Part shown: piece by piece, positions 16,701 to 31,670 of the stretch
Numbering within the stretch: position 1 is the first letter of the stretch
How the letters are laid out: each line of letters opens with the position of its first letter
Made by a program: the position numbers and the translations under genes
Notes under the pieces: model-generated
The model's database searches: none
What the model saw: the letters and a program-made list of their open reading frames with translations, nothing else
What the model was told of the DNA's origin: nothing
Source of the DNA: a virus
Length of the DNA stretch: 34,200 nt
Direction: 5' to 3' (one strand)
Virus record (IMG/VR): IMGVR_UViG_3300032271_001530
Location: 1-34,200 of that record

Positions 16701-19700
16701 AAATCACTGCTCGTTCATTTTGAACACTTATAGCATAAGAATTGTTATTTGCTAAGCTCGGTATAATAGTAAAATAAGGATTGTCTACGTCGTAGCCGCT
16801 GACAGTATATCCATTTTCACTTTTTTCAACTATTACTGCGCTGTAAATAATGGTCTTTGTTGGAGTAGATTTATTGATTTGTATTGTGTAGTTTTCATTT
16901 GGTATCACAACTCCCTGATTGGTACTGGTTGGACTGCTTTGTTCAGCAATTACTTCAATCATTGTTGAGTCTGTGTAACTAGCCATTTTATAGGCAAGTT
17001 GTACTGATACGTATTGCAAATAACTATTGATTTTAGTTATTGGATCTATGCCGTTGTATCTTAGATAATCAGATATCCAATTCAAGTAACCTGCAGCCCG
17101 TTTAATAACAGCACTGGTAGTATCGCCGTTCAAATTAACAGTAGTAGTTGGTGATACTCTCTGAAGATTAGTAGTTAGAATATATTGATCTAGATCAGTA
17201 TTTTTATAGTATTCGCCAATGTTCATCAATGTGCCAAAATAAAACGCAGGGAAAGACAATGCTAATGCTTGTTGCATAGCATATGGAAAATCACTGCTGC
17301 GACGCCAAGCTGTTTCAACTGGTCCTTGGTTTCCAACAGCATAACTTGCATTGGTATGACTACTGTCAATGCCAGCAACTGCAAATTCATTGGGGGGTCT
17401 TAATAAACCGTGATCATCGACCGGAATAATTTTACTCAATCCCGGACGAGCAAATCTGCTGTCATAGCCAGCGCGGCTGCCGGAGTATACATAACCTTTT
17501 TCTAAGTCGTCCCATAATACCCGATTACCGCCTGTGTATGGAGCTGAGCCATATCTATCTGCCCACCAATCAGGTTGTTCTGAGAATCCCAACATTTCCC
17601 ATGGATGAGTGTGTGGTCTTGCTGTATCATAAAAATAATCAAATATAGCTCGCCAAGCGCCGGGTAATTGTTCTGAGTCAATACTATCTTTGTAATATCT
17701 GTAATTCCAAGTAAATGGATTGCTAGCTTGAAAATAACTGTTGGTTGTAAAATCTACTCTGTTGGCACCTGCCCATTTAAGAAAACTACGAGTCAGTATC
17801 TGATTAAATTCAGTGATGCTGTATTTTGAATCACGAAATTTACCTGGTATATGATCGTATATGTCAAAAACATTAGTCGCATAATTGATCTTGATATTAT
17901 TATAAATTCTTTTTTCAAATTCTAATAATAAATCGTCTCGTATATCACCAAAAGCAGGCGTAATACTGCCGTCGTGTCCTTGAATTACATACACTGGTTC
18001 TTGGTAAGTATCATCCAGATACTTCTCAGGCATAAATTTGGGGTATAACCCTAACTTAGTTGGTGTTTCAGGTATATAATTTCCGTCTGTGTTAGTATAT
18101 TCATTTATAGTGATAATATCATCTACATTCAACAAGTACGAATTGTTTATTGTCACACCAGCTCGATTAATGTCAAAAACATAATCTATACCTTTGGTAA
18201 GCTGCACGTTGTTCACATAAACTAAAACTGCTTGATTGCTCAATGCAGTATCATCAAAAATATTGCTTATTTCATAATCTCTGATTTCTGCGTCCAAAAC
18301 AGTGTAGGTGATAGTATTTTTAATTTCACCATAGGGAATCATGTCACTGTAGTACCAAGGAAATGCTTTGTTTTTTACTTGGTTGATATTCTTGAGAATT
18401 TGATCACATACGCCGGGAATATCAGTCAAATCAACAGAATCTGATAACAAATAAACTGATTCTAAGTACTTGTTTTTGATTTTTTGATATTCATGTCGAG
18501 CTAAGTCTAAACTTTTTATTAAATTTGCATTTGAATCTACCAGAAACAATTCGCTATAAAGCAAAGGACTAGCATGCTGTACGATACTGCCTCCTTGTTT
18601 CTTAATTGGTACATCTCTGAGATTACTATCGCCTGGTAAAGTTCCGATAATTCTAGTTGTATTTTCATACAGTGCGCTAAGATGATTGCGCATTTGTCCA
18701 AGCGTCAGACTAGTAAAATTTTTATTTTCTGTATTCAGATCTAAATTCTTGGGTATCTCATAGTAACCAATTTGACTTACGTCAGTGCTATAAATTCTTA
18801 TGTCTATTCTATCGCCCAGCGTCAACGATGTATCATCAACTCTAATATAAATGTTTACACCAATCGTCTCTTGTGTATACAAAGAAGAATTCAGCAACTT
18901 ACTGTTTTTATAAACTCTTAAATGAGGTACAGTTTTATCTTGTATAGCAGGCGTGATATCAATCAAAAAATATTTGTTTGAACCATCATAAATGTTACTG
19001 ATAATTTGAAACTGCTGTGATGGTTCTACTTCAGTAGTCCACATGTTTTTGATCGTGTAATTTGTTAGATCAGAATTGAATCTCATAAACCCAACAAAAT
19101 TTATATTTTTCGTAACCGTCGTATTAGATACAGTATCCAGATAGGAAAATGTATCGTTGTCAAAATTATTCAAAAACTGAATGTCGCCGATTTGATTAAA
19201 ATTTCTATAGCTCAGAGGAAATCCAAGTATAGAATCATTTGCGCCTGTGCCAGGAGCGTAACTGAAAACTTTAGTACCGACAAATGTGCTGCCGGCATAC
19301 ACATCTGTATTTGATAAGCTATATCCATTTTTGTCTATTGCATCAAAAAGTGGTGATTGATTCAAAGAGGACTTGGCCTGACACGGCAACCAATTTGCAC
19401 CATCAAAATAATATTCAACACCAGTGATAACGGTATCATCAGTAATAACTCCATCAACTGCAATCAAATTATTGTACGGTAACACTTCTGCATCAGATGC
19501 GAGTTGCAAAGTAATAACATATTTGCCATTGACATAAGAATATTTCACTACATAAATCTTGTTTTTTACGGTTGAGTCGATATCATTGCCAAATATTATT
19601 CTTTGGCCGTCTTTAAGAGTTATGCCGTGAGAAAGTGTGACCAATTCTTGAAGTTCAATGCCATTGAACGCATCTGTAAAATTACTTGTCAAAAGCAATA

Positions 19701-21600
19701 TATTGACCGGTGCCTTGGCTTTTCTGCCAAAGTTCCATAATTGAATATCATAATCAAACTCGATAATTGGTCTATTAGACCTTAGATTTTGATCTAATAA
19801 AAGTGTGGAGTTATTATAAGCAGCAGTTTGTTTAATAACGTCAATGTGAAACCATCGATTACTTCTACTCCAAGGATTTAGGTCCTGACTGCCTCTGTTA
19901 ATTGTGATATAGTCTTTTTCTGAACCAAATCCTTCAGGACTAATAAAATCATTGGTATCTAACAATCTTATAGCAGTACCAACGCCTTCTACATAATAAG
20001 TGTTGCCAACATATTGACTCGGTATAACTCCGGTAGAAAATCTTACTTTTAATCCATTAGTGAATTCTACTCCGTTAGGACTCTTGTAAGTTGTCTTGCC
20101 AATTATTTTTCTTACATCTATAACGTTATCAATAGATTCAGAAAGTGCAATCTCACCTTGATATTGAGTTTCTATGCCGTCTTGGTAATAAAGAATGGGC
20201 AATGGTGCAGTTATATGAGGAACTAATTCAAAAAAATCAGTATCTTTATCTCTATAGTAAGTCAGCTGTCCGCGCGCACTGCCGTTTCTGACAAACACTC
20301 GTTGATTTGCCAATACTTGTACGTCTGGTATTAGTCTGATAATTGGATCGCCGGGATCTCCGATCAAAGTAATTTTCCATAGGCTTCTTCTCTGACTATT
20401 TGGAACTGTAGGATATGATGAATAGTTATATTCAGTAAACAATATCGAAATACCAATAGTTAAAAATAATCCTATTGGTTGATTTAATGTTATTTGATTT
20501 CCTGAAATGTTGGTTATTCTGATATCAGAGCCAAGCAACTGTTCATCACTTAGATACATGCCTACTTTTAACCCAGCTGCATTATCTATAGTAATAACAG
20601 TATCTGTAGAGGTAGTTGATACCGTTAATTGATGTGTCACTGATTCAGCATATGTTTCAGAATCATACAAATCATTGCCTGTCCAAAACACATCATCTGT
20701 GTCGTTGTTGATGAATATCAGCGTTTTACCTGCAAGATTGGTAGTTACATTGTCGAAGCCATTGAATGGTGATTTTTGTAAAACTCTAAGATTTGTGTTT
20801 TGAATATCACTGAAATGCAGTTCAGTGCTGAGATCAGCCGACGCAACCAACGGCATTTCTAAATATTTGTCTTGTTGTGTTGGCTGAGGCACGTTAAATG
20901 TGATAGTGCCATTGTCTATGCCGTTGTTTTCTACACCCAAAACATCTCGTGTACTGACATTTTTTTGATTGTTTCTATATCCTTTAGTGCCTGGATCACT
21001 TTGAATCCAGAAAGGATACCCAGGCTGATTTACTATAAATTTGTATGTACCACCGTAGCCTAAGTGCAAAGTTGGGTTCTGAGTTGTGCCTAGACCACTG
21101 AAATGATAACTGCCGGTCGATGGATCTCTTGTCACGACATATGTACGATCTTTTTCAATAGCACTACCATATACATCCACTGCATCTGGCCCGTTTTCAA
21201 GCCAGTAATACTGACTGAAATTAATAAATTTATCAAAATCAAATCTGCCGTCAAAACTATATGATTCACTGGCAAACAATCTACTATGATCGGTGGTGAT
21301 ACCTCCGTAATATTTTATCTGATTCAGTAAATCTATATAACTGCTAAAGAAATTTAAATTTTTTTCTTTATCCTTGACAACAATACTAGGTTCAAGTTGA
21401 TAGTTTGTACGTTCTGTAGTCGGCTCAGGTTGATAATTATCTGTGCTTTTGAACGTTGGTGCAAATTTTCTACCAATATAGCCATTTACTTTTCGCAAAT
21501 CAGGTTGGCTAACCAGCTGATCTAGTGTAGCATTCAAGAATTTCCTGTTTGTGTCTGTTCGGAATATCTCTGGTAAGAAATTTACTGTCTTTATCGCCAT
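7771..21600 (-). CDS. Giant (4609-residue) baseplate wedge/tail protein in the gp7 position, with FG-GAP propeller and C-terminal repeats
   Basis: One uninterrupted frame. It directly follows gene 6, where T4 encodes gp7 (about 1030 residues), so a wedge role is inferred from order. The N-terminus (NFLPEIFRTDTNRKFLNATL) and several aromatic-rich blocks look like conserved structural cores: about 1287-1405 (PGAWRAIFDYFYDTARPHTH, then WEMLGF and PDWWADRYG), 1904-1980 (FYQGFIKEKGTINAI), 2915-2975 (MRYIDYEQGSLIYRQATWGE) and 3366-3425 (NEVKPYRTSLREYVLDY). Residues ~2300-2800 hold six FG-GAP-like blades. Residues ~3500-4575 hold about eight copies of a G-x2-(I/V)-x-Q repeat. Near 4429-4484 there is a common phage beta motif (INGEIITYY then LRRAVNGTGAP). 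No catalytic motif was recognised. The start has a weak GGA 6 nt upstream and lies 10 nt after the stop of gene 6. Baseplate membership is likely; gp7 homology is not proven. Confidence 0.75.
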   Translation of the reverse strand: MAIKTVNFLPEIFRTDTNRKFLNATLDQLVSQPDLRKVNGYIGRKFAPTFKSTDNYQPEPTTERTNYQLEPSIVVKDKEKNLNFFSSYIDLLNQIKYYGGITTDHSRLFASESYSFDGRFDFDKFINFSQYYWLENGPDAVDVYGSAIEKDRTYVVTRDPSTGSYHFSGLGTTQNPTLHLGYGGTYKFIVNQPGYPFWIQSDPGTKGYRNNQKNVSTRDVLGVENNGIDNGTITFNVPQPTQQDKYLEMPLVASADLSTELHFSDIQNTNLRVLQKSPFNGFDNVTTNLAGKTLIFINNDTDDVFWTGNDLYDSETYAESVTHQLTVSTTSTDTVITIDNAAGLKVGMYLSDEQLLGSDIRITNISGNQITLNQPIGLFLTIGISILFTEYNYSSYPTVPNSQRRSLWKITLIGDPGDPIIRLIPDVQVLANQRVFVRNGSARGQLTYYRDKDTDFFELVPHITAPLPILYYQDGIETQYQGEIALSESIDNVIDVRKIIGKTTYKSPNGVEFTNGLKVRFSTGVIPSQYVGNTYYVEGVGTAIRLLDTNDFISPEGFGSEKDYITINRGSQDLNPWSRSNRWFHIDVIKQTAAYNNSTLLLDQNLRSNRPIIEFDYDIQLWNFGRKAKAPVNILLLTSNFTDAFNGIELQELVTLSHGITLKDGQRIIFGNDIDSTVKNKIYVVKYSYVNGKYVITLQLASDAEVLPYNNLIAVDGVITDDTVITGVEYYFDGANWLPCQAKSSLNQSPLFDAIDKNGYSLSNTDVYAGSTFVGTKVFSYAPGTGANDSILGFPLSYRNFNQIGDIQFLNNFDNDTFSYLDTVSNTTVTKNINFVGFMRFNSDLTNYTIKNMWTTEVEPSQQFQIISNIYDGSNKYFLIDITPAIQDKTVPHLRVYKNSKLLNSSLYTQETIGVNIYIRVDDTSLTLGDRIDIRIYSTDVSQIGYYEIPKNLDLNTENKNFTSLTLGQMRNHLSALYENTTRIIGTLPGDSNLRDVPIKKQGGSIVQHASPLLYSELFLVDSNANLIKSLDLARHEYQKIKNKYLESVYLLSDSVDLTDIPGVCDQILKNINQVKNKAFPWYYSDMIPYGEIKNTITYTVLDAEIRDYEISNIFDDTALSNQAVLVYVNNVQLTKGIDYVFDINRAGVTINNSYLLNVDDIITINEYTNTDGNYIPETPTKLGLYPKFMPEKYLDDTYQEPVYVIQGHDGSITPAFGDIRDDLLLEFEKRIYNNIKINYATNVFDIYDHIPGKFRDSKYSITEFNQILTRSFLKWAGANRVDFTTNSYFQASNPFTWNYRYYKDSIDSEQLPGAWRAIFDYFYDTARPHTHPWEMLGFSEQPDWWADRYGSAPYTGGNRVLWDDLEKGYVYSGSRAGYDSRFARPGLSKIIPVDDHGLLRPPNEFAVAGIDSSHTNASYAVGNQGPVETAWRRSSDFPYAMQQALALSFPAFYFGTLMNIGEYYKNTDLDQYILTTNLQRVSPTTTVNLNGDTTSAVIKRAAGYLNWISDYLRYNGIDPITKINSYLQYVSVQLAYKMASYTDSTMIEVIAEQSSPTSTNQGVVIPNENYTIQINKSTPTKTIIYSAVIVEKSENGYTVSGYDVDNPYFTIIPSLANNNSYAISVQNERAVIYKEYQKYKVVVPYGFEFSNKQQLVDFLVSYGRYLTGSGIQFTDYDSDLTEQRDFVLSSKEFLSWSQQGWPIGSVIILSPILNIIRVNNTQGIVDNVENAPGASRVLDTNFNFIKNNQFTVLRDGNVFKLTANFTQTIALAVLDVVEYEHVMIFDNTTVFNDIIYKPELGNRQYRMKLIGSKTGGWTGVLNPGGFIYNSPSVPNWQSGVDYKKGALVSYKNFYYAALSDIVATLDFVPGQWRQIPTSEIKTGLLPNFSYNASKFNQFFDLDNPSTEGGFDEFSDRVIGFQERQYMTDFGIDRSIQAKFYQGFIKEKGTINAINAFTAAGFNGVTSTVNLYEDWAVRVGEYGALENNKFVEIQLVEGQYSSDPLLITLLPNNGSSVDQIIGIKPADLYRTGTGYEANIFLNRDDHSIYENDIHTAGYVNVNDVDTTIYDIANYSSLSTKINSMGIGYKIWCAKDFNNDWNVYRLTETEGSVVSLSYSVDNISTVTTDKKISVVYGDLVVIKGFDPRVDGVYQVYSVESPTRFNIVTLAIATTIKNLQTITGKGSIFKFISSRVKTATDLNSITPIRGWMNSDKLWVDNDTNTGTWAVYNKTEPWTANVSDFNANMKMSANDYVTDSGFGSVTTINQSGTFAAAGMPAANNGRVMTFVSNITNGNTFTLVANISSQNSGVSNFGASLDSSGNILYIGAPGDGSTQSGNVFVYLYWAANSSFTKLQQISSHWSPNVGDAFGQSISASTDGRWLFVGAPNKGNVEVFYANTLQSADPTVGPITQYTYANTISNSSASKFGYTIKTTSDASQTIISAPYETVNGISSAGAVYVYDRSIETFIANTSQSYATLNTIDPRFVRVTIDSTYKQITTDYTVSGNVITFTSAPTIGSKINVETSKFQFMERITADNPTSGAVFGITSHISGNDADIFVSSPGFSEIGYYSGIVYRFVNEGAAYGAISSSKYSPTVAIGDSIRLNGQIVKFWQTDVANVAANINTAGIAGVTASVSDVGILTISSNVVTAYQKLIVGPGNGTALRDLGLNVYQSAQTFRHPVNDQVDNFGAHVLSSYDSRKLIIGATGGTTYNTMALDQNITTFDQDSTNFLDSIYGSGSVYVYGLVGGDLAGPAADQYVLVQRLQNNNLQNNDLFGSSLAMNDHTLLVGAQNDSGNKIIADSVSGLLTAVPRTGTYYVYNDFSGNVGWDIIHTQEPRVDTRSITNFYIYDKTNNKVLARLDHIDPAKGRVLGIADQDIDYRTPYDPAIYNSAGSTDEAANELSVNVNSPWGMNQVGKIWWNLAAMRYIDYEQGSLIYRQATWGELFPGSAVEVYEWVVSDLPPSSYKGSGTAKYPNNTAYVVESYVDEVSKTVRSHYYFWVRGKTTIEQDSNKSNSVAAIEEIILNPAAQDIPYVQVLRSDTISVHGITDKITANNIILHINYDTLKNTNVIHSEYALIQEGSASSKIPPRFIDKLRDSLSGVDKNGNLVPDPALSFQNKIGIYNRPRQSFFVDRFLALKNWIEYINNIFITVPVIEEFRIDPLYQGEPLPSDELYDITTDTKTELDYIDLTKITAGYTVLVISDEYQRGIWALYSYSGNTTSPWTLIRSQSYNVPFYWSKVDWYDGTYDYTVKTDYVVATSNDLLKFSTLQEGKTIKVLNNGRGQFEVYRYNNQGTRDLVGIQNGTIQFNSDLYDSTIDATTEIRIIFDTILNDIFIKSLQENLNQMFFFMINYVLTEQKDIDWIFKTSFVSVIHQLKKLEQFPNYIRDNQTYYESYINEVKPYRTSLREYVLDYQGNDNFAGDITDFDLPSIYNSSTGTYHSPDGSLSTDAEQLANASVYSQWQNNHTYSIKEVLVTNGGAGVQTPIISLFLNPPVTLQVGNTVTQSSNTATGTVISSSADGICNLLNVTGTFDTSNYIYDNGANTYSTVSALTILSDNGYYLEPTVTVVGGGGTGANIRAVINADTNTIEKYQVIDPGYNFSSIPEILINGVSTGAAGYPVLTGQYYLESIPTVNLTLERPVTVYTGNLIVQPNTNASGTVYINSNSSIITLVDVVGKFESNSWIFSEFANLQVRPAFATDIIWLSGNANVYIGNILTQSSGGSAMPWASGTVISNAVGVYEKEVTGWVTKVPLWQVQGRFFSNTNVFRDGTDLGLYSMRTISTGDTSPMIYFTQTENKSYNKVRSFDSVLKFDRVGYNTQVIDWQPNTTVAAGTIVSYEGIGYQALTDVYSSAIIKLSGNISATAGAYVGQINQSGNARLTTTVVSNNTITVSNISGTFFKRNGNITINNVDTLARPVRIINVFDYTKYQRVPTESFDNANDRIWACYQPDNTMRTKDLKKLVYGIDYPGVKVQGVKFDELTSTTNTTVVHTGTITNTLNVVVDDLTRLVSDNTNVINFVDLQYSRGQYLTVVNNDVNIVNLSGAVIVKPGDYIKQGAANVKVLAQSASNTVTVSTGLSTTGGTITVYNRTVNTGTFALSSNITTNSGNVLTQPVTGATAVVAINAINSNLISVVSITGTFLANAYIYDQAANTTAKFSSLIPSFTSFSTSYVPTNIDKNTNTVLIEEVSEGNLYVTGTLDYIAANANVTLNYYDQNNPIFLDSIIQSDYGYRTAEITLSGNLTASYGSILGQIGNDASAVIRTTVVNTSFITLPNTYGIFNTVSNLTLDGNDTGLTASNVAIITDTQSVLGTRVEDIVVSGGAYYDTFNSHAPEELIPGITYDTMVMRVYSNIYANTTYLAHAVVHNMRANVNSADSKQWPKYYKIDANTFTHSTFLTANLHITDSNIFVANAALLSVPSPSTATPGTILINGEIITYYELDTVHNRLGQLRRAVNGTGAPAVHLAAAYVTQQNKFLYSNAAVIQDLTIRPLPGTPHKDTWYNAAANQTLYVTASVTVNVGNVITQTITGATGVVSANSTGNVITLVNSSGIFDSNVTNHYYLYKDSANLHVLPANAISFLSGTGFEGSTSKEVTYLKNINT
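7890..11110 (-). repeat. C-terminal array of about eight G-x2-(I/V)-x-Q repeats in the giant protein
   Basis: I count eight related segments, starting near residues 3499, 3647, 3718, 3871, 4053, 4109, 4249 and 4523. Examples are VGNTVTQSSNTATGTVIS, TGNLIVQPNTNASGTVYI, SGNVLTQPVTGATAVVAI and VGNVITQTITGATGVVSA. Most continue with an N-x-I-x-(L/V) strand and end in (T/S)G-x-F. They are separated by unrelated beta-rich sequence of varying length. The DNA copies are diverged, so the array is old. Confidence 0.65.
13205..14685 (-). other. FG-GAP (integrin-like beta-propeller) region of the giant protein
   Basis: Six blades share an FG-x-S/T...(L/I)-x-(V/I)-(G/S)-A-P pattern: NFGASLDSSGNILYIGAPGD (~2308), AFGQSISASTDGRWLFVGAP (~2366), KFGYTIKTTSDASQTIISAP (~2424), VFGITSHISGNDADIFVSSP (~2541), NFGAHVLSSYDSRKLIIGAT (~2686) and LFGSSLAMNDHTLLVGAQND (~2774). 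Several are followed by a G-x-V-Y/F-V-Y strand. This is the signature of FG-GAP repeats, which fold as a seven-bladed propeller in integrins. A seventh blade may be too diverged to see. Confidence 0.75.
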
Positions 21601-21610
21601 ATTATTTCCA

Positions 21611-24600
21611 TCAAGGTATTACATTTGCCAAGCTTTGATTAAGCTGCGTGGCTGTTATTGCACTAATTATTTCAACATTATCGACCGTGGCTGCACTAAT
21701 AATAACTTCATCAGGTTGAGCATTGATCTGCATCAAACTACCAAAAGCTTGATTGTTAGATGAAGGTACTATAATAATACTTGCTATATTAGGAGACAAT
21801 TTATTATGTAGATACGTACTTAGTTCACTGAAATAAAATGTCTCACCAAAATCCCAATTTGCTGTATCAAAAAACGTGTTGATCGCTGATATCACACTGG
21901 TTTTAATATCATTATCACTAATTATTCCATTAGGATTCTTTACTACCTTAAATGTAGCCTGATATTCTAATCTAACTTTATTGATATCTAAACCAAACAC
22001 TGGCTTGAATTTTCCTGAGTTATAAACTAACGTATCGCTGAGTGCTTTGTAGTTTTCAAGACTGGTTGATCCTGCACCATATGCCATTTTAAGTTCTTCA
22101 TTGGTGGGTCTTGTAGGTTCACTGACTGCACCACTGGTATCTCTTATCCAAGCAATATAATCTTGTGTGTATTGTTTGGTCAAAATGTATAAATCCATGA
22201 CATTATTTGGACTAGGGTCAATTCTTCTTTCACCGGGACTGTTGTGTCGATGTTGAAAATACATGTCTTGCCTGCCTACTTCAGCCACATAACTAGTGTC
22301 TGCCGTTGCCGGAAATGTTCCGGTTGTTCCTAGTACCCAAAAAGTTTTTTCAGAGGTTGCGTAAAAAATTTGACCTGCAGCGTAAAGACTCTTGTGCGTA
22401 GAAATATCATTATAGGTAGCATAAACTGTTACAACGTTGTTGTTGTCTACGGGAACCAGAATGTCATAGCCGTCAGTGGTTAGCTGATGTTGAAAAAACA
22501 CATACTTTTTACTGGTATTCACTGTTGGAGCAACAATATTGGCAAACAGATCCGGATCATCAGGCACGCCGTCGAAATTCGAATCGGTGTATGTGATTAA
22601 AACTTTAGAATTATCAATAAAACCCGTGGTATCTATCAGATTATTGTAAATGTACCAAGTTTGATCCTGTGTCAGCGGAGATGCGCTGTCTGGCTTGTTA
22701 TTGATTTTTAATATCTTTATTTGATCATGCACAATTACTCCTTCGCGTGGATCATATGCATTAACTTTTGGATCAAAATAGAATCTGGTTTCGTCTACAC
22801 TGCCAAATACATATTGCTGAGTTCGATAAAATGCAGAATATGTTGTGCCGTTGAATCCAAAACGAACTATCCAACTTGCATCCAATGCATTTCCTGTTGT
22901 ATTTCCTGCATATGTGAGGCTAAATGTATCTGTAGGATTCAAATCCTGTGGTAAAATTATCTTCCAGGTTTGATAATCTACATCATATCTGATGCCAAAA
23001 TTCTTGTAACTTTGAATCAATTTGGTCATCTCGTCAGTGAATGTTTTTCCTGGCAGTACCGTGTTTAACACAGGAATAATTTGATCAAGAACAGCAGAAC
23101 TAGGAACTTGTGCACTGAGATTTACGCCGTTTCCTAAATTAGTAGAGGTAACTGCAGCATAGATATAAAATTTTTCGCCTTCGTATACCGGTGTGCCTGT
23201 CTGTATTTGATTCTGAGTATCAAAGTACTTGGTGCCATCAGTAGATGCTACAAATCGCAATAAAGAACCAACCGTAACATACTTTAATGCACTATCAGTA
23301 ATTTTACCGATACTTTGTGTTTGACCTCCGGACTGCAGATAACCTGAGCAAGAATTTGTGTCTACTGATATACGTGACCAAACAATATTGTTAAAGTTAC
23401 CGGGTCTGATTTTTCGTGGAAAATTTGTATAATAAAATTGTTTAATTTCCACAGTTGATAACAGCGGATTAACCACATTATAAATCACATTGTTTATATC
23501 GTTTGGTGAACTGATATTGAAATTTACACTCTTGATTGGCAAGTCTTGATAAATGAATCCATCGCTACAAAACACATTCGTGCTGGAATACTTGCCAGTA
23601 GCGTCTAAAACATCCAAAAATCTGCTTACGCCAGCACTACTACGGTTAACAGCTTTGACTTTTAATATGCTGTTAAAGTTAGTGTAAGGAAAAATATTAT
23701 AATCTTCACCTGTGATCATGCGATTCTGAGTGTAATACTGTTGCGGAGCTTTAACTCTGATATCATCAGCAACTTCACGAATGTCTGCGTTGGCTACTGT
23801 GTATTGCAAACTAGCTCTAACCGTCAACGTTTCAACACGATTATTTCGACTTACATAATTAATTGAAATCAACACACCCTGTATTTCATCAGGTGTGACT
23901 TTATAACGCTGTCCGTTGCTAACTCTGTAATACAAACGATAAACACCTTGCGGAACGTTCGCAAATGATCCATCGCCAAATACTAAATCTATTTGATCAT
24001 TTGCTCTGGTGTTTACTTGATACAAATTTCTATCTGAACTGTGGTTGTAAATTATATTAATTCCAGCCAATGCTGGAACTTGAGTCCATAATGTAGATGG
24101 GGTACCAGTGCTGTCTAATTCATATAACCAAACGTCGCTGTTGTTGATATTATCAAAATTCAAATTTACAACACGGTTTGACAAAGCTTGTGAAAGGTTA
24201 AATGATGTATTGTTTAAAGTGCCTTGCTTAAAATAAACAAAATAGCCTGTGTTAGCACTGGCATTTCCTTGATTATCATTACGATATAAAATATTGAATT
24301 TTCCAGCAGGCTTGGGTTCAGGTTCATAGATGTAACTTTGGCCGGCGGTTGTGGCACTCACAGCTTCAAAATTCATCAGACTGCCTTCAACTACTGCTTT
24401 GAACCCAAATGTCGGCACTACACCTTGAACTAGATTAATAGTATATTCATCAGTTTGAATACTGTTAATCATCTGGCTATTACTGGGTTTTCCAATTAGC
24501 TGACTGTTTACTAAGCTAGCATTTAAAATAGTAGCAAATTGTTCTTGCCAGTCTGGATTAGTCGTGTCGTTCCAGCTAATAATTAAATTGCTGAGGTCAT

Positions 24601-25003
24601 AACCATTTGAATCTGTAATACGTTCTGTGGTTGTAATGCTGTCTATCTTCAATAAGCCATTGGCTGGCATATTTCGTTTAGCATTGTAGCTGATAAGCCT
24701 AGCTAATTTTAAAACACTATCTCGACGCTCAGCAGTATCAAAGAAATTTTCGCGAGCGTTTAAGTCTGTGCGAAACGCAAGGCTTTGCCCTAAAAATGCG
24801 ATAAGATCAATAAGGGCAATATATTCACTACTTTCTGTGTAGTCATTAAAATCTTCAGGATAATATGTTCTTAGGTATTCAATCATTGACTTTCGAATAG
24901 TCTCGAAGTCATAGCTCTGAAAATCAGCTTCCTTAAAAGATTGATATACCTGTTTCCAATCCTGATTTACTAATAGGTTGGTTTGTCTTCTAGTAATAGC
25001 CAT
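21611..25003 (-). CDS. 6: Baseplate wedge protein gp6 (Baseplate_J-like)
   Basis: The N-terminus (about residues 20-125) has the gp6 pattern seen in T4-like phages: YDFETIRKSMIEYLRTYYPE, then SSEYIALIDLIAFLGQSLAF, RTDLNARENFFDTAERRDSV and LARLISYNAKR. The middle contains the Baseplate_J-like beta domains with VFGDGSFANVPQGVYRLYYR near residue 340 and ITGEDYNIFPY near 435. The C-terminal part (FKPVFGLDINKVRLEYQATF, later WDFGETFYFSELSTYLHNKL) fits the dimerising end of wedge proteins. In T4, gp6 forms the continuous ring of the inner baseplate together with gp53 and gp25. At 1130 residues this copy is clearly longer than T4 gp6 (about 660). AGGA lies 10 nt before the ATG, and a late-type motif CATAAATA lies 22 nt before it. 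gp25 is just upstream and the giant gp7-position gene begins 10 nt downstream, which is the T4-like order. Confidence 0.92.
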   Translation of the reverse strand: MAITRRQTNLLVNQDWKQVYQSFKEADFQSYDFETIRKSMIEYLRTYYPEDFNDYTESSEYIALIDLIAFLGQSLAFRTDLNARENFFDTAERRDSVLKLARLISYNAKRNMPANGLLKIDSITTTERITDSNGYDLSNLIISWNDTTNPDWQEQFATILNASLVNSQLIGKPSNSQMINSIQTDEYTINLVQGVVPTFGFKAVVEGSLMNFEAVSATTAGQSYIYEPEPKPAGKFNILYRNDNQGNASANTGYFVYFKQGTLNNTSFNLSQALSNRVVNLNFDNINNSDVWLYELDSTGTPSTLWTQVPALAGINIIYNHSSDRNLYQVNTRANDQIDLVFGDGSFANVPQGVYRLYYRVSNGQRYKVTPDEIQGVLISINYVSRNNRVETLTVRASLQYTVANADIREVADDIRVKAPQQYYTQNRMITGEDYNIFPYTNFNSILKVKAVNRSSAGVSRFLDVLDATGKYSSTNVFCSDGFIYQDLPIKSVNFNISSPNDINNVIYNVVNPLLSTVEIKQFYYTNFPRKIRPGNFNNIVWSRISVDTNSCSGYLQSGGQTQSIGKITDSALKYVTVGSLLRFVASTDGTKYFDTQNQIQTGTPVYEGEKFYIYAAVTSTNLGNGVNLSAQVPSSAVLDQIIPVLNTVLPGKTFTDEMTKLIQSYKNFGIRYDVDYQTWKIILPQDLNPTDTFSLTYAGNTTGNALDASWIVRFGFNGTTYSAFYRTQQYVFGSVDETRFYFDPKVNAYDPREGVIVHDQIKILKINNKPDSASPLTQDQTWYIYNNLIDTTGFIDNSKVLITYTDSNFDGVPDDPDLFANIVAPTVNTSKKYVFFQHQLTTDGYDILVPVDNNNVVTVYATYNDISTHKSLYAAGQIFYATSEKTFWVLGTTGTFPATADTSYVAEVGRQDMYFQHRHNSPGERRIDPSPNNVMDLYILTKQYTQDYIAWIRDTSGAVSEPTRPTNEELKMAYGAGSTSLENYKALSDTLVYNSGKFKPVFGLDINKVRLEYQATFKVVKNPNGIISDNDIKTSVISAINTFFDTANWDFGETFYFSELSTYLHNKLSPNIASIIIVPSSNNQAFGSLMQINAQPDEVIISAATVDNVEIISAITATQLNQSLANVIP

Positions 25004-25052: not shown

Positions 25053-25442
25053 TTATTGGGAAACTGAAAATACTTTGGTGGTACCTGGTGAATTTTTATC
25101 AAACTGTAACATAAGAGTTTCTACTTGATTTGTAGCTCGATAGACCAATGTTATCATGATTTGAATACCGTATTGCTGCTCAGTGATATCAAATTGCGTT
25201 ACACCCAACCGAGGATCATAATTTATTATTTGCTTGATATCATCAATGATGGACTGTCGCAAAGTTTCAGTAAATGGCTCAAACAAACTACTCCAAATCA
25301 TGGTACCAAAATCAGGCTGCATTACTCTCTCACCTTTTTTGGTGTTAAGATAATTTATAAGATCTTGTTTAGCAAGTTCAAAGTCTGTTACTCTAAACTT
25401 TTTAACTCGATTGTATGTTGAAAAACCGTTGTATATAGTCAT
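25053..25442 (-). CDS. 25: Baseplate wedge protein gp25 (GPW/gp25 lysozyme-like family)
   Basis: This 129-residue protein is close to the T4 gp25 length (132). It has the family core: DFELAKQDLINYLNTKKGER followed by VMQPDFGTMIWSSLFEP (residues ~22-58), an acidic helix (LRQSIIDDIKQIINYDPRLG), and the end strands (YGIQIMITLVYRATNQVETL). The R-V-M-x-P-x-F-G-T and F-E-P elements are the family hallmark. gp25 links gp6 and gp53 in the inner wedge and primes sheath assembly. It lies 9 nt after gene 5. No ribosome-binding site is visible; AATAAATA ends 6 nt before the ATG, so it may be expressed from a leaderless late message or by coupling to gene 5. Confidence 0.93.
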   Translation of the reverse strand: MTIYNGFSTYNRVKKFRVTDFELAKQDLINYLNTKKGERVMQPDFGTMIWSSLFEPFTETLRQSIIDDIKQIINYDPRLGVTQFDITEQQYGIQIMITLVYRATNQVETLMLQFDKNSPGTTKVFSVSQ

Positions 25443-25448
25443 AGATAT

Positions 25449-25456
25449 TATTTATT
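25449..25456 (-). promoter_or_regulatory. 25: Possible late promoter (AATAAATA) abutting gp25 start
   Basis: The minus strand reads AATAAATA across the stop of gene 5, ending 6 nt before the gp25 ATG. The spacing equals that of the exact TATAAATA before the gene at 7733. AT-rich stop-codon sequence could produce this by chance. Confidence 0.35.
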
Positions 25457-28400
25457 TCGGCACATAGCTAGATAAATTGATATGAACTTTATCTGGCTTT
25501 GCAAAATTGCCTCCCCATGTTAAGCCATAATCACTTAGATTAAATGATGTGGCTAAAATTTCTGCCTGACTGCTGTCAATAGCGATTCCTTGGCCATGTG
25601 CATTGAGCTTGCCGCCTTGGCTAATAGGTTTAGCTGGTGTGGTAATATTCGCAGCAGTTGGATTATCTGGGCCGCCGCCAGCTGCTAGCCACTTATTATA
25701 AATTGCTTCTTGTTCAGTTTGTGCTCTATATGCACTGGTAATTGTAACTTTACTGTTGGTTTTATCTTTATAATCCTGAGCTAATTTTAATATAGCACTT
25801 TTGAACGCACCATCAAGTTGATCAAAGTGCGCACGATCTCCGCTGCCTGCTGTAAACACTAATACATCATCAGGATTTATGCCACTGGTATTTTCACCAG
25901 CTGGACCAGTGCCTGCCACTGACGCTACTGCACCATTAGCTGATAAAACATCAATTGCGTATCTACCGTGGTTAAAGTAGTTTGCAGCTATACTGTCTTT
26001 ATTTTTGTCTCGCCATGTTTTGGCTTTATCTACACTTCTGTAATAATGCGCGACAAACAACATGCCAGCTGCTGTACAAATATCATCTGTGGATTTTATC
26101 CCACCATTATTTTTTAAATCATTGTAATTTGCAGTAAATTCATCTAACTGTATTGCATCCTGAGTACTCTTGTAATCCAGAAACGTCGTTAGATTGTTTA
26201 TGCTATCTTTGCCTGTCCAACTTTCATCATGAAGTAAAGCTGAATCACCATATTGTTTATATGCGTCAGGTTTAATATATGCTCTGGCAGAATCTGCTAG
26301 ATATTCTGAATCTATTTGATACTTGCCTACAGTGGTATCATTGGTTGTTTTAGAATAATTCCATTGGCTTTCCATGTAGCCCAATTCGCTCATCATGGCT
26401 TTTACTTGAATCTGATTAAATTGAGGCGCAGAATCTCCGATTCCACCAGGTGGATTATAATTGTCTGATTTATTCAGCCATTCTGCTGGACATGTATCAC
26501 CAAAAAGTGCTTTGCCAGCTGCTTCAGTGATGCCTTGATCTTCAGTAGATGTTGTTGTACTGTTTGTACTGCTGATAACATTGCCAGTGCCATCAGAAAC
26601 TTCTCGATTTTCAGTTTGAGTTTCAGATTGCACGCCAGCGTTGGCTAGAATCTGTTTGACTGAATCTTGATTTCTTTGGATCGCAGCTGCCACATCTGCT
26701 ACAGTGGTATATCCTTTTCTAGCTGTATCAAAGCTAGGATTCGCTCTTTGAGCAGCGCTGCCAGGCTGAAAAACTACGTAATCATCAGGTTTACCAACTG
26801 CTGCAGGCCATAATATGGTCAAATAAATGTCAACAAGTCTTGGAGTAGGTGCTTTTTGATTAAGTTGATTAATTTGAAAATATTTCAATACAAAATCACA
26901 TTGATCCTGACGAGTCAAATCTTTGATGGCTTTGGTTGTTGTGCCACATGCTCGACAAGCATCTACTCCAAACTGAATCAAACCAGTGTAGCCTAGACTG
27001 TTAGTAATAGCCGGATCAAAAGTACCACCAGTTTCTAAATTCATACATGATAACATATCAATATAATTCAAGTTCAATGAGCTGCTGATGCTTTTAACTT
27101 TTTCAATAAAAGGTTTGTCAGTAGACCACGGATAAGGTTGGCCTTTTACTTTGCCTTTATCAAGATTTGCTGAATTTGGTGGCGGCAATGTATAATTGGG
27201 TGGTGCTCCTTTTTTAGGTGGGCATATGCTGCTGTTGACTACTGTGAGTGGTGCATCGCCAGTGACTTGTAAACCATTGGATCCTTGTCGTGTCCAGGGC
27301 TCATGCTGTGGCAGTACAGAAACAATACTTTGTTGACCAGCTACCACTTCTCTCCAAACATTACGAGGAGTAACATTTTTATCACTTATGAAACCAGTGG
27401 CGTTGTGTGAATTTTGTTGTATAACTGTGCCAACGATACTGTTGCCGCCGGCTGTTTTGTTCAAATCAATTTTGCTGCCGTTTATTTGTATAGCACCGCT
27501 GGCACCCATGTTTACAGTGCTAGCGCCAATGTTCATAAAACTGCCTGAGCCAAAATTTACTTTGCCCCCAAAAGCCAATATACTATCTGAACCAGTGGCA
27601 TTTATTTTGGAAGCTGTTATATTAAATTCGTTTCCAGCAAAAAGATTTATATTGTTTTCAGCATGAATATTGACATTTTTACCAGAATGAAGATTCATAT
27701 CTCCTTGTGTGTGCAAATTAAATCCAGCTGCAGTAAAAATATGTAGATGACCTGACCCTGCTAACTCAATCCAAACTGAGCCTTCACTATTAGCAATATA
27801 AAGTATCTTTTCATTATCATTCATAAGAATCTGGTGACCGCCTGCTGTTCTTAATCGAATCAGCTGGTCTTTACCCATTGAATCACCGTCATCCATGACA
27901 AATTGATGGCCGCCTTTTCGAGCACGAACTGCATAGGTGTTATCATCAATTTCACCGCGATTCACTTTATATTGAAAATCTGGATCATCAGCAGGATCAT
28001 TGCCATAAGCACGGCCAGGTGTTGAAATACCAAATACATGACTGGGTGTTTCACGCTGACTGCTGCTGGTTATAGCTCCTCGTATACCATCAATATCTAG
28101 GCCTTGCTTAAACAGTATATTTGCTTGAAACTCATGAATGGGTCTAGGATTATTATAAAAGTTATCTGAGATTGCATCTTTTGCATTTTCATTAAACTCT
28201 ACAACTGGCAAGACTTGTGGTTTTGCCCCATTAATGTCAAGACTTGGTTTGAAATAATCAGATACAGTTGAAACATCTGCCTTGGGATTTGTGGCTATGC
28301 CCGGAACCATGCCATGGCTTAGTGTAGGATTAATACAAGCAAACCAATATCCTCTGCTTGGATCAGCATTAACAAATGTGCATAATACTTGATTGCCTAT

Positions 28401-28721
28401 GTCAGGTGGAATCATCCACATGCCATATGTGTGATTTACTTTATCAAATGCATTGTTCTCGTACTTTGATGGCTGATATGTTGCACCAAAATAAGGACTT
28501 GCATAACTTACAGTTCGCCAAAATGCTGGATCGTTTTCTGTTTTTTCATTTTGAGAACCACCAAAATCTGGTATCCACACTTGTAGTCGGCCACTGCGAG
28601 TCGGATCGTAATTGTCTTTGACAACCCCTATATATGTGGCAGCATCTAGTTTTGTGCCTGCTACTTTTTCTCGATCAGTGTGAATCGGCGTTTTTCTACC
28701 TTGGCGTCTATCTTCAGCCAT
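25452..28721 (-). CDS. 5: Baseplate hub needle protein gp5 with three peptidoglycan-hydrolase-like domains
   Basis: This 1089-residue protein punctures and digests the cell wall. T4 gp5 has 575 residues and one lysozyme. Residues ~29-120 are the OB-fold that seats gp5 in the hub (YIGVVKDNYDPTRSGRLQVW, then IPDFGG). Residues ~269-421 are the VgrG/gp5-type triple-stranded beta-helix (AAGFNLHTQGDMNLHSGKNV and similar strands). Then come three wall-active regions. One is a transglycosylase-like domain with probable catalytic E563 in NLETGGTFDP...GYTGLIQF. A second lysozyme-like domain has E784 in GYMESQWNYS...VGKYQ. The third is a C-terminal M15 peptidase with H1042 and D1049 (NAHGQGIAID) and D1077/H1080 (WGGNFAKPDKVHINL), matching the zinc ligands of L-alanyl-D-glutamate peptidases. 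Ser/Thr-rich linkers separate them. AGAGG lies 7 nt before the ATG. Domain roles come from motifs; activity is untested. Confidence 0.9.
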   Translation of the reverse strand: MAEDRRQGRKTPIHTDREKVAGTKLDAATYIGVVKDNYDPTRSGRLQVWIPDFGGSQNEKTENDPAFWRTVSYASPYFGATYQPSKYENNAFDKVNHTYGMWMIPPDIGNQVLCTFVNADPSRGYWFACINPTLSHGMVPGIATNPKADVSTVSDYFKPSLDINGAKPQVLPVVEFNENAKDAISDNFYNNPRPIHEFQANILFKQGLDIDGIRGAITSSSQRETPSHVFGISTPGRAYGNDPADDPDFQYKVNRGEIDDNTYAVRARKGGHQFVMDDGDSMGKDQLIRLRTAGGHQILMNDNEKILYIANSEGSVWIELAGSGHLHIFTAAGFNLHTQGDMNLHSGKNVNIHAENNINLFAGNEFNITASKINATGSDSILAFGGKVNFGSGSFMNIGASTVNMGASGAIQINGSKIDLNKTAGGNSIVGTVIQQNSHNATGFISDKNVTPRNVWREVVAGQQSIVSVLPQHEPWTRQGSNGLQVTGDAPLTVVNSSICPPKKGAPPNYTLPPPNSANLDKGKVKGQPYPWSTDKPFIEKVKSISSSLNLNYIDMLSCMNLETGGTFDPAITNSLGYTGLIQFGVDACRACGTTTKAIKDLTRQDQCDFVLKYFQINQLNQKAPTPRLVDIYLTILWPAAVGKPDDYVVFQPGSAAQRANPSFDTARKGYTTVADVAAAIQRNQDSVKQILANAGVQSETQTENREVSDGTGNVISSTNSTTTSTEDQGITEAAGKALFGDTCPAEWLNKSDNYNPPGGIGDSAPQFNQIQVKAMMSELGYMESQWNYSKTTNDTTVGKYQIDSEYLADSARAYIKPDAYKQYGDSALLHDESWTGKDSINNLTTFLDYKSTQDAIQLDEFTANYNDLKNNGGIKSTDDICTAAGMLFVAHYYRSVDKAKTWRDKNKDSIAANYFNHGRYAIDVLSANGAVASVAGTGPAGENTSGINPDDVLVFTAGSGDRAHFDQLDGAFKSAILKLAQDYKDKTNSKVTITSAYRAQTEQEAIYNKWLAAGGGPDNPTAANITTPAKPISQGGKLNAHGQGIAIDSSQAEILATSFNLSDYGLTWGGNFAKPDKVHINLSSYVPK

Positions 28722-28741: not shown

Positions 28742-31366
28742 TTATATGCCTACCACAAAATCACTGTTCACTATGTTTGATAAACTTTGATCTTGACTAG
28801 TATTTTCATTAAATTCAGTAATTGCTTGGGCATTAGCTCGTTGTGCTTGGTTTGGATTATCTGCTAGCTTGGTGACTGTGCCGTCTGCTCGTGTGATTGT
28901 TGCTCCACCGCCACTGGTGGTAGCTATTGTAGTTGAACTACTGCTTTGTTTTGATAAATTTACAGTAGATGAGCTATTGGTTGTAGAAACTGCCGTTTGA
29001 TTGCCAGAATCTGCTTGCTGTGGCGAGATTTTAGGATCATTGATTTTGTTGCCTTCTGCAAGATTTTTATCAGTGTTTCGATTATCTGCATTTGTTGCGT
29101 TTTCAACTTGATCGGCGTTTGAAGATTTATCATCGCCAGGTTGATTAAACTGTCTTACCATTTCTAAAGATTGTGTAAACTTTCCTTGTACAAACTCACT
29201 TTCTACAGTAAGAACTCTATAATATCCACTGAAAACACTTTCAGAATATTTGGAATCTTTTCGCAATAGTCCGGTGGTTTCATCAATATCTACCGGTGTT
29301 TTAAACGTCACATAACAATAAATCTCAGCTGCGTCCATAACCAAGCTGTTGGTATTCACTAATAACATTTTTGAATCATCATAACTTTCTTGACTGGGAT
29401 TTTCGTAAATGTCATCTTGCTTTATGAAATGAGGATCACCTATTATTTTCAATTTTAAATTGAGCATGTCGCCACGTGGCGTACTGAGTAAACTTTCTTG
29501 CACACTGTGAGCTTGTTTTTTTGTACTGTCAGTTGATGCGTTCAAAATGCCAGTTCCAACTTGATCTGCAACAGGTTTGAAACTCACTGGCGTCACACTG
29601 TTTCCTGATCCATTTATTTTAATACGAGAATTTGAACTATTGGGTGTTTCGTTGTCTTGTTGTTTTGCTGTTTGCTGAGTCTTGCTCAAATCTGATTGTG
29701 CAGCAGTGTAATAAAGAGTGTTGAAGTCTATATCAAAATCTATAATATCGTTGTTTTTGCCAGTGAACATGTAATCATATTTTTTAGCATAACCATCCGG
29801 AAATGATTGATTTGCCCTACTATCTTTAGAATTGTGATACTTAAATGTTTTTACATGATAAACAGTTTTTCTTTGGTACTGATTTCTTTTTTTATCAAAT
29901 GGGCCTAATGTAACTGAAGGTATAATTTTATACCAATTGATAGCTTGTTTTTTAATTGCAGAAGAAAAAGAATCACTGTCCACCACAGATGAAGAATTCT
30001 GCAAATCGCTGCTCAAAGTTGGATCAAGTATCTGATTTGTTATATATTGACTGTTCAGTAATACTTGACCTATCAAAGTCATCAATGATGTGCCGGCATT
30101 TATATTAAATGACTGTCTTTCAAAATCTGGCCCAATTGTTGGTCTAGTTTTTTGAGTATCTGGATTATTGCTTTTTGCTCGATCCGCGGCACTTACAGTG
30201 CCTTTTATTGGTGCTTTATCAGAAGGGTTTTTCTTAGCATATACAATATTGGTTTTCATAGCAGAATCAAATTCTACCTTAATTTCATCAGCAAATTCTT
30301 GTACGCCATTTTTAGCTGCTTGTTGTTGCCATGCGTTATAAGCAGCCACAAAACTTGTGATTCGAGGTGTAGGCGCAGGTGTATCTGCAGTGTTTGTGCC
30401 TTCAGATTTGCTTTTTTCTCCAGTGGTAGTTGTTCTGACATCAGTGTTTGTGGTCTGTGCTGAATCAACACCTTCTTTGGGTGGGTTTGGCACCAAGTCA
30501 TTGATCTGTTTAAGCTGATTTGAATCAAGACTATCAGAAGAAAAAAATTCTTGCACAGTCTTTGCTATTACTTCAAAGTTTGCTGGGCTAGCACTTGAAC
30601 TTTCCATATAAGCAGTATGATTAAATGGCACAGCAGATATTGCGTATTCACCACCCCTGACAGATGCTTTTATTTTCATTTCAGTTAATTTAATTGGTAT
30701 AAACTTAGTATGCTCAGCTAAATTTGCAATTTTACCATTGTCATCATATGCAAAAAAATTAATTTCCAACAAATAAGGTATATCAAGATAATTGTTTGCA
30801 CCTAATTCTTGAACATTTATGTCAATCAAACGATTCAACAAAGTCAATCCATATGGTTCTATTATAGTAAAGCTGAGCTGTATTGCGTTTGTGCCTTGGG
30901 AATGGGAATTCAATCCTATAACTGTAGACATTTTGAAATTATCAAAATAAAAATCATCTTTAAAACTAGGCAATCTTTTATCATGATATCTGCTGGCTGA
31001 ACTTATAAGAGTTTTTTGCGGCTTAAACTGTTTTGGACCACCTTTAGATAATGTATTAAAATTTTCAGCAGTCAATGCATGCAAAGTTAGGCCATAAGTG
31101 TAGTTTGGATAAGCATGCAATGGGTTAGGCACAGGACTAGGTGTTTCATTATTGCCAGCATTAACCGCGGAATTTGTGGTTTTAGTTGCTGCTGCATCTT
31201 CTGTTGAAGCCTTAGGTGTGCTCGAAGAAACAGTAGTAGATTCAGAATCTATAGGATAAAGACTAGCTGCTGCATTTTTTTGTTCCTCTGGTGACAATAA
31301 AGATGCGTTAAAGTTATTAGGTTGATTGATTGCATCAATAATTAATGAATCTTGCTCTACAGCCAT
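28742..31366 (-). CDS. Large baseplate hub-like protein between gp53 and gp5 (gp27 position)
   Basis: This 874-residue protein lies directly before gp5, whose hub partner in T4 is gp27 (391 residues). The first ~80 residues and residues ~290-340 and ~755-835 are low-complexity Ser/Thr/Asn/Gln linkers. Two folded parts are visible. Near 163-245 there is a beta domain (SFTIIEPYGLTLLNRLIDIN, then PYLLEINFFAYDDNGKIANL). Near 644-745 there is a hub-like barrel segment (GDPHFIKQDDIY, then FSGYYRVLTVESEFVQGKFT and QSLEMVRQF), of the kind found in tail-hub proteins. No enzyme motif is seen. AGGT lies 7 nt before the ATG, 1 nt after the gp53 stop, so the two genes are likely translated together. A hub role follows from position and the barrel-like end; homology to gp27 is inferred, not shown. 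Confidence 0.6.
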   Translation of the reverse strand: MAVEQDSLIIDAINQPNNFNASLLSPEEQKNAAASLYPIDSESTTVSSSTPKASTEDAAATKTTNSAVNAGNNETPSPVPNPLHAYPNYTYGLTLHALTAENFNTLSKGGPKQFKPQKTLISSASRYHDKRLPSFKDDFYFDNFKMSTVIGLNSHSQGTNAIQLSFTIIEPYGLTLLNRLIDINVQELGANNYLDIPYLLEINFFAYDDNGKIANLAEHTKFIPIKLTEMKIKASVRGGEYAISAVPFNHTAYMESSSASPANFEVIAKTVQEFFSSDSLDSNQLKQINDLVPNPPKEGVDSAQTTNTDVRTTTTGEKSKSEGTNTADTPAPTPRITSFVAAYNAWQQQAAKNGVQEFADEIKVEFDSAMKTNIVYAKKNPSDKAPIKGTVSAADRAKSNNPDTQKTRPTIGPDFERQSFNINAGTSLMTLIGQVLLNSQYITNQILDPTLSSDLQNSSSVVDSDSFSSAIKKQAINWYKIIPSVTLGPFDKKRNQYQRKTVYHVKTFKYHNSKDSRANQSFPDGYAKKYDYMFTGKNNDIIDFDIDFNTLYYTAAQSDLSKTQQTAKQQDNETPNSSNSRIKINGSGNSVTPVSFKPVADQVGTGILNASTDSTKKQAHSVQESLLSTPRGDMLNLKLKIIGDPHFIKQDDIYENPSQESYDDSKMLLVNTNSLVMDAAEIYCYVTFKTPVDIDETTGLLRKDSKYSESVFSGYYRVLTVESEFVQGKFTQSLEMVRQFNQPGDDKSSNADQVENATNADNRNTDKNLAEGNKINDPKISPQQADSGNQTAVSTTNSSSTVNLSKQSSSSTTIATTSGGGATITRADGTVTKLADNPNQAQRANAQAITEFNENTSQDQSLSNIVNSDFVVGI

Positions 31367-31367
31367 T

Positions 31368-31670
31368 TCAGATACCTAAGTCTGAAACAAGATTTTGTTT
31401 TTTAGGAATATAGATGCTAGTGCCGTTACGAAAATCAAAAACTGGATCATCGATGGTATTAGGATTTCTTTCACGGAATACCCACCATAATGCAGCGTCA
31501 CCGTACAAGTCAAATGCTAGCAAATCTGGTCTAAATTCATACATCTTATCAATAGTGTATAGAACATCATCTGAATATTTTGTAATAGGTCTATAAGTCA
31601 ATATATCTAAAAAACTGCCAAAGGTACCAGTTTTATAATATGGGCTGACCTTACTGTATTGAACGGTCAT
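31368..31670 (-). CDS. 53: Baseplate wedge protein gp53
   Basis: This 100-residue protein is shorter than T4 gp53 (196) but keeps the LysM-like core. The residues YRPITKYSDDVLYTIDKMYE, FRPDLLAFDLYGDAALWWVF and RERNPNTIDDPVFDF run through the middle, followed by NGTSIYIPKKQNL, the usual LysM ending where the IYIP strand sits. gp53 clamps the inner wedge ring to the hub. Its ATG overlaps the stop of the tail-tube cap gene by one base (TGATG), and a strong AGGAGGA sits 8 nt upstream inside that gene. Confidence 0.85.
   Translation of the reverse strand: MTVQYSKVSPYYKTGTFGSFLDILTYRPITKYSDDVLYTIDKMYEFRPDLLAFDLYGDAALWWVFRERNPNTIDDPVFDFRNGTSIYIPKKQNLVSDLGI

Follow-up and report, generated by a model that had tools for sequence, protein, structure and literature searches.

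The hub gene and its parts

IMG/VR virus record IMGVR_UViG_3300032271_001530 contains, within the 34,200-nucleotide stretch analysed here (positions 1 to 34,200; hereafter the window), a gene for a gp5-like baseplate hub, P0001, in which three wall-enzyme domains lie C-terminal to a beta-helix. An earlier note, made from the sequence alone, had described such a protein at 25452-28721. The position agrees with the open reading frame (ORF) found there; the strand, which that note left unstated, is minus, and the plus-strand translation of the interval is full of stops. The hub and its parts are as follows.

25452..28721, minus strand: gp5-like baseplate hub, three wall-enzyme domains C-terminal to the helix, 1089 amino acids (ORF call, phrog match)
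28332..28634, minus strand: OB domain, about residues 30-130, Phage_base_V (Pfam)
27432..27794, minus strand: beta-helix, about residues 310-430, octad periodicity (hydropathy, phrog_13211)
26652..27128, minus strand: LT1, phage lytic-transglycosylase domain, residues 532-690 (phrog, PDB sequence match, predicted fold)
27033..27035, minus strand: codon of E563, putative catalytic Glu of LT1 (alignment)
25917..26489, minus strand: LT2, SLT-fold (soluble lytic transglycosylase) lytic-transglycosylase-like domain, residues 745-935 (phrog, predicted fold)
26370..26372, minus strand: codon of E784, putative catalytic Glu of LT2 (alignment)
25455..25868, minus strand: M15 (VanY/Ply500-like) peptidase domain, residues 952-1089, with H1042, D1049, D1077 and H1080 (phrog, profile, predicted fold)

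The OB domain scores 27.9 bits against Phage_base_V (PF04717; cut-off 23.8), or 35.9 with both pieces in frame, and the hub family phrog_13211 matches residues 31-434 (E 5.7e-38); Pfam DUF2345 stays below its cut-off on this protein. Hydropathy in residues 310-430 has a period of eight that none of 1000 shuffles equalled in strength and that is absent from three other stretches tested, as would be expected of a beta-helix. The helix is followed by a linker and then by LT1, LT2 and M15, with linkers at residues 441-531, 691-744 and 936-951. Neither Pfam nor phrog matched an enzyme family between the OB domain and the helix, and all three enzyme matches lie beyond residue 525, in agreement with the earlier note's claim that every wall-active domain follows the helix; the residues it had named (E563, E784, H1042, D1049 and H1080) also lie exactly where it placed them. 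NCBIfam and PADLOC gave no match for P0001, and a match covering more than 80% of the protein was not found among 50,697 phage records.

For LT1, phrog_4928 and phrog_196 match residues 530-686 with E down to 1.4e-28. The closest solved relative is PDB 9udh, a bacteriophage lytic transglycosylase (E 7e-21 by sequence), on which the LT1 model superposes with Z 19.7, a root-mean-square deviation of 2.0 and 32% identity over 148 aligned residues; phiKZ gp144 follows with Z 10.2 (both VIA). Whereas LT1 is part of the hub chain, 9udh is a stand-alone chain of 164 residues. E563, G580 and Q583 are invariant in all 23 three-domain proteins, the window's included. The combination of a lysozyme-superfamily fold with a putative catalytic glutamate, E563, is that of a lytic transglycosylase, as had been proposed for this domain. 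A further match of the LT1 profile is to 9k2v, a pre-ejectosome of cyanophage A4, where it falls in the C-terminal part of one internal protein.

The C-terminal domain matches the endolysin family phrog_2649 (E 1e-11) and, as a profile, solved VanY enzymes in the PDB (E 4.8e-4), and its model gives Z 9.9 to VanXYg and 8.9 to Ply500 (VIA). R999, H1042, D1049, D1077 and H1080 are each present in 23 of the 23 three-domain proteins. Over 30 M15 domains (these 23 and seven others), counted from printed motifs since the alignment columns of the seven are misaligned, DxxH occurs in every one and HxxGxxxD in 29, L009 being one residue short. With both the M15 fold and the HxxGxxxD ... DxxH motif in place, the proposed peptidase and its three named residues are retained, to which D1077, in D-x-x-H, is to be added as most likely the catalytic acid.

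LT2 is matched by phrog_27932 at residues 772-923 (E 1.7e-10), and its profile found no relative by sequence among solved structures; three rows for HEPN toxins, with E about 0.4, were discounted as chance matches. The fold was predicted by AlphaFold2 from 46 rows (pLDDT 94.2, pTM 0.90). Foldseek ranked MltE first with a best E of only 0.044, while VIA gave Z 12.6 to the soluble lytic transglycosylase Cj0843 (root-mean-square deviation 2.9, 140 aligned), 10.9 to MltE and 9.6 to phiKZ gp144; of the 50 VIA rows shown, lytic transglycosylases and goose-type lysozymes make up the majority, and a chitinase and a GH124 cellulase come further down. E784, numbered 48 in the model, closes the first long helix (34-49), the usual site of the catalytic glutamate in this fold. 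The window's LT2 thus has the SLT fold with a glutamate in an intact E-S motif (E784-S785), and its GKYQ motif is also intact. The second lysozyme-like domain of the earlier note therefore keeps its place in the lysozyme superfamily and is refined to a family-1 lytic-transglycosylase fold, so that both lysozyme-like regions have found the fold matches that the note had asked for.

A hub with these three domains past its helix is not a chance pattern. Compared with L003, which is 90% identical, dN/dS is 0.029 for the hub, 0.032 for LT1, 0.040 for LT2 and 0.040 for M15, values that are rough because synonymous sites are near saturation (dS 1.1-1.5).

Turnover of the post-helix domains

Hub ORFs from scans of viral contigs, from five named phages and from one contig of a metagenome-assembled genome (MAG) numbered 187, or 120 after merging of near-copies (more than 85% of 8-mers shared), with the window excluded and its pieces L001 and L002 dropped. 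This sample is no census: one scan used 80 of 599 candidates and another 80 of 136, and the latter was searched by LT1, which inflates the LT1 counts. ORFs open at an end were left out of the first labelling and of the 92-row tree. The hub scan of a genome collection returned a single relative, carried by a contig from a Porticoccaceae MAG; as this may be a stray phage contig, it was not used to assign a host. The 120 ORFs fall under 11 labels, with post-helix stretches ranging from nothing to five enzyme-like domains.

LT2: 47
LT1+LT2+M15: 22
LT1: 14
other: 14
hub only: 12
LT1+SGNH+LT2+M15+alpha/beta-hydrolase: 2
N54+LT2+M15: 2
GH19+LT2+M15: 2
N54 alone: 2
M23+GH24: 2
LT2+M15: 1

These counts were made with trimmed GH19 and N54 seeds; short GH19 and N54 labels and an "LT1+GH19" label for L037 in an earlier labelling were rejected as artefacts of seeds that included the post-helix linker. 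Fragment L118 has the five-domain order as well. M15 occurs in 29 of the 120 ORFs and is always C-terminal to LT2, while the slot N-terminal to LT2 holds LT1, a GH19-like domain, N54 (endolysin-like) or nothing. On the 92-row hub tree, which omits rows labelled "other" or M23+GH24, M15 requires three changes, LT1 three and LT2 six.

The names GH19, SGNH and alpha/beta-hydrolase for domains of relatives are leads. The GH19-like domain scores 30.0 against Pfam Glyco_hydro_19 in L038 (cut-off 25.5) and stays below the cut-off in L014, where it matches the endolysin family phrog_181 (E 2.4e-40). N54, our label for the domain of L054 and L055, matches phrog endolysin families 90 and 1200. The SGNH-like domain has a Pfam E of 0.0021, below the cut-off, with GDS and GSND motifs; the alpha/beta-hydrolase-like domain has BAAT_C at E 0.0028, likewise below the cut-off, with GFSKG, and a PDB search gave no match for it. 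In L083 (7249-8649), the part of the hub that joins the helix to LT2 matches families of tape-measure proteins and is perhaps a long coiled-coil spacer. The hub of Atu_ph07 (L028 4908-7502), annotated as a tail lysozyme, ends in a trypsin-like serine protease (Trypsin_2, E 1.9e-17).

A trace of exchange is found between L012 (1462 amino acids) and L026 (1459 amino acids). Their hub genes are 0.75-0.93 identical in 150-base bins outside LT1, as against 0.57, 0.66 and 0.57 in the LT1 bins starting at residues 534, 584 and 634, and the synonymous difference is 0.743 in LT1 compared with 0.41-0.48 in all five other regions. The best explanation is that one of the two has had its LT1 replaced by a diverged copy. 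The gene upstream of the hub (about 3151-4950) has an identity of 0.57-0.80; since it is less alike than the hub genes, it may have been exchanged too.

At the other extreme, 12 of the 120 hub ORFs, that of PA5oct among them, are at most 510 amino acids long and end soon past the helix, from which it follows that the spike can do without the stretch. It might be argued from this that the spike alone suffices for entry and that the stretch with its many enzymes persists as a decayed or passive remnant. We regard this as the least probable of the explanations considered, since purifying selection is strong on all three domains and the catalytic residues of LT1 and M15 are invariant. The PA5oct hub itself (L029 4917-6347, 477 amino acids) gives no enzyme-profile match, yet is annotated as a tail lysozyme.

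Proposed action of the spike

Taken as a whole, the evidence makes it likely (a probability of about 0.78) that P0001 is a puncturing hub or spike of the gp5 type from a contractile-tailed phage of the T4 superfamily, with its wall enzymes set in a modular stretch past the helix. By homology the hub would be a trimer; when the sheath contracts, LT1, LT2 and M15 should thus each be driven into the wall space in three copies, presumably by way of the outer membrane. As to the inferred activities, LT1 most likely cleaves the glycan strand by means of E563; M15, with H1042, D1049 and H1080 as putative zinc ligands and D1077 as acid, most likely cleaves the stem peptide or cross-link; and LT2, with E784, would either cut glycan as well or bind it. 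Cutting glycan and peptide together might be of advantage to the phage. In this reading the post-helix stretch further consists of exchangeable modules, and recombination has apparently replaced LT1 in one pair of relatives or more.

Several points weigh against this reading. The wall type of the host is deduced from the hosts of named relatives. A PAAR tip protein was not matched in the nine records searched, whose completeness is unknown. The Pfam VanY match of M15 (E 3.8e-4) is below the curated cut-off. A 565-residue multi-domain model reached a pTM of 0.46, and the mutual arrangement of the domains is therefore not readable from it. Finally, E784 is present in 16 of the 23 three-domain proteins and replaced in seven by L (four), I (two) or V (one), and in the wider LT2 alignment A2 glutamate occupies the position in 33 of 46 rows and not in 13, some rows aligning doubtfully.

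These substitutions bear on the earlier note's idea of three active hydrolases, which need not apply family-wide. It could be that only LT1 and M15 are active and that LT2 is a scaffold or glycan-binding domain losing catalysis in the family, a serious alternative that we nevertheless hold with the balance somewhat against it. It would account for the replacement of E784 in seven three-domain proteins, and by Q in L014, when all 23 of the former keep E563 and the M15 residues, and for the three changes that the glutamate state needs on a hub tree of 29 rows. An LT2 without glutamate is under purifying selection in the LT2-only pair L062/L064 (dN/dS 0.022), so the domain is retained without its catalytic residue, and in L012 and L026 the SGNH-like stretch is inserted within LT2, between its E-S and GKYQ motifs. 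However, the window protein keeps E784 and GKYQ, and the loss is not tied to possession of LT1: the idea that the glutamate goes only where LT1 is present was ruled out by LT2-only hubs that also lack it. LT2 is thus probably non-catalytic in some members of the family, while for the window protein we lean, on balance, towards a catalytic LT2.

One of the closest described spikes is T4 gp5, to which P0001 is similar in its OB domain, beta-helix, wall-cutting enzyme and baseplate gene neighbourhood. According to excerpts of two papers, T4 gp5 has one lysozyme between the OB domain and the helix (PMC3622015, PMC5259590); P0001, by contrast, has no enzyme match before the helix and three domains past it, and so departs from the T4 layout. 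Also close are the Rak2-like hubs (RaK2 gp078, CBB_240 and GAP32 gp234), which are homologous, with a similar gene order and post-helix enzymes. The RaK2 paper describes a hub of 886 amino acids with its lysozyme C-terminal to the helix, in a domain composition that it calls very unusual (PMC3622015), and the CBB paper suggests a central M23 (E 6.48E-4) and a C-terminal lysozyme in one hub (PMC5259590), both as excerpted. GAP32 and Vibrio phage 2.275.O have hubs that likewise join a peptidase and a glycosidase past the helix, M23 lying below and GH24 above the Pfam cut-off; a separate small GH24 lysozyme gene also adjoins the GAP32 hub gene (L030 6643-7128). Given the RaK2 and CBB precedents, P0001 is not unique as a tail-tip protein that combines glycan and peptide cleavage. 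The Rak2-like pair M23 and GH24 is nonetheless unrelated to LT1, LT2 and M15, and Pfam lists neither in P0001 at E up to 1. What is new relative to RaK2 and CBB is the modularity of the post-helix stretch; a description of an LT1+LT2+M15 hub was not found in a literature search that had most subscription journals outside its reach.

A homologous LT2 in a hub with a helix occurs in Rhizobium phage RL38J1 (phrog_27932 type), where it lies at 335-485, N-terminal to a helix at 549-759, in T4's order, and where the LT1 and M15 profiles match nothing. This module thus precedes the helix in one phage and follows it in another. Glycan- and peptide-cutting domains also share one tail-tip protein in phi29 gp13, as excerpted from PMC9863714, although phi29 is a podovirus of Gram-positive hosts with another type of carrier protein. 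For the SGNH-like domain, a GDSL/SGNH domain at the tail tip of S. aureus phage 80alpha (Tal) offers a precedent in the accessible part of PMC7048315. Virion-lysin endopeptidase domains are stated, in the part of PMC6116005 available, to be almost confined to phages of Gram-positive bacteria; the GAP32 and Vibrio phage 2.275.O hubs, with Gram-negative hosts, are outside this rule, and the window's family probably is too.

A spike delivering wall hydrolases is also known from the type VI secretion system, whose spike delivers Tae17, an effector that is both lytic transglycosylase and amidase (excerpts of PMC11796386). By analogy, it would be tempting to see in the post-helix domains mainly a means of lysis from outside, biofilm spread or attack on rival cells, with entry secondary. 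We consider this very improbable, since the gene lies in a phage-type baseplate cluster and no sequence feature found points that way. Tae17 rides non-covalently on a VgrG spike; in P0001 the enzymes belong to the spike polypeptide itself, which is mounted on a phage baseplate.

Extending the gp5-type reading to the family, we see nearly an even chance that a widespread T4-superfamily lineage uses the spike as a chassis for exchangeable domains, from none to five in number (glycan cutters, peptidase, SGNH-like, alpha/beta-hydrolase-like), which are traded singly by recombination to match host wall chemistry, with LT2 turning from enzyme to binding or scaffold domain. If so, nature would provide spikes that share one chassis and differ in carrying anything from zero to five enzyme domains. 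Such a series would let the contribution of each wall-cutting activity to entry be measured and would be a source of naturally combined wall enzymes.

Baseplate neighbourhood

The genes next to the hub are the following.

31368..31670, minus strand: baseplate wedge subunit (phrog_7145; gp53 position; phrog match)
28742..31366, minus strand: virion structural protein (phrog_11190; phrog match)
25053..25442, minus strand: gp25-like baseplate wedge subunit (phrog match)
21611..25003, minus strand: baseplate wedge subunit (phrog_10646; gp6 position; phrog match)

The cluster runs from a late sigma factor gene, on the opposite strand, through a structural protein, the gp53-like wedge, a second structural protein and the hub to the gp25-like and gp6-like wedges. 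By phrog matches the hub gene is thus placed between gp53-like and gp25/gp6-like baseplate genes, the place of a gp5-like hub, and this neighbourhood, together with Phage_base_V and phrog_13211, bears out the hub assignment of the earlier note. Part of the gene order recurs around the hub homologues of Phosso, Atu_ph07, PA5oct, GAP32 and Vibrio phage 2.275.O: the order hub-gp25-gp6 is found in GAP32 and PA5oct (in the latter with two small genes in between), and Atu_ph07, PA5oct and GAP32 have a virion structural protein gene at the position equivalent to 28742..31366.

Adjoining the gp6-like wedge, a very large ORF of 4609 amino acids (7771-21600, minus strand) matches the virion structural protein family phrog_10938 with 1144 bits. 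A 1005-residue ORF at 2848-5865 (minus strand), without a PHROG match at 0.001, contains repeated similar segments and a glycine-rich stretch near its end.

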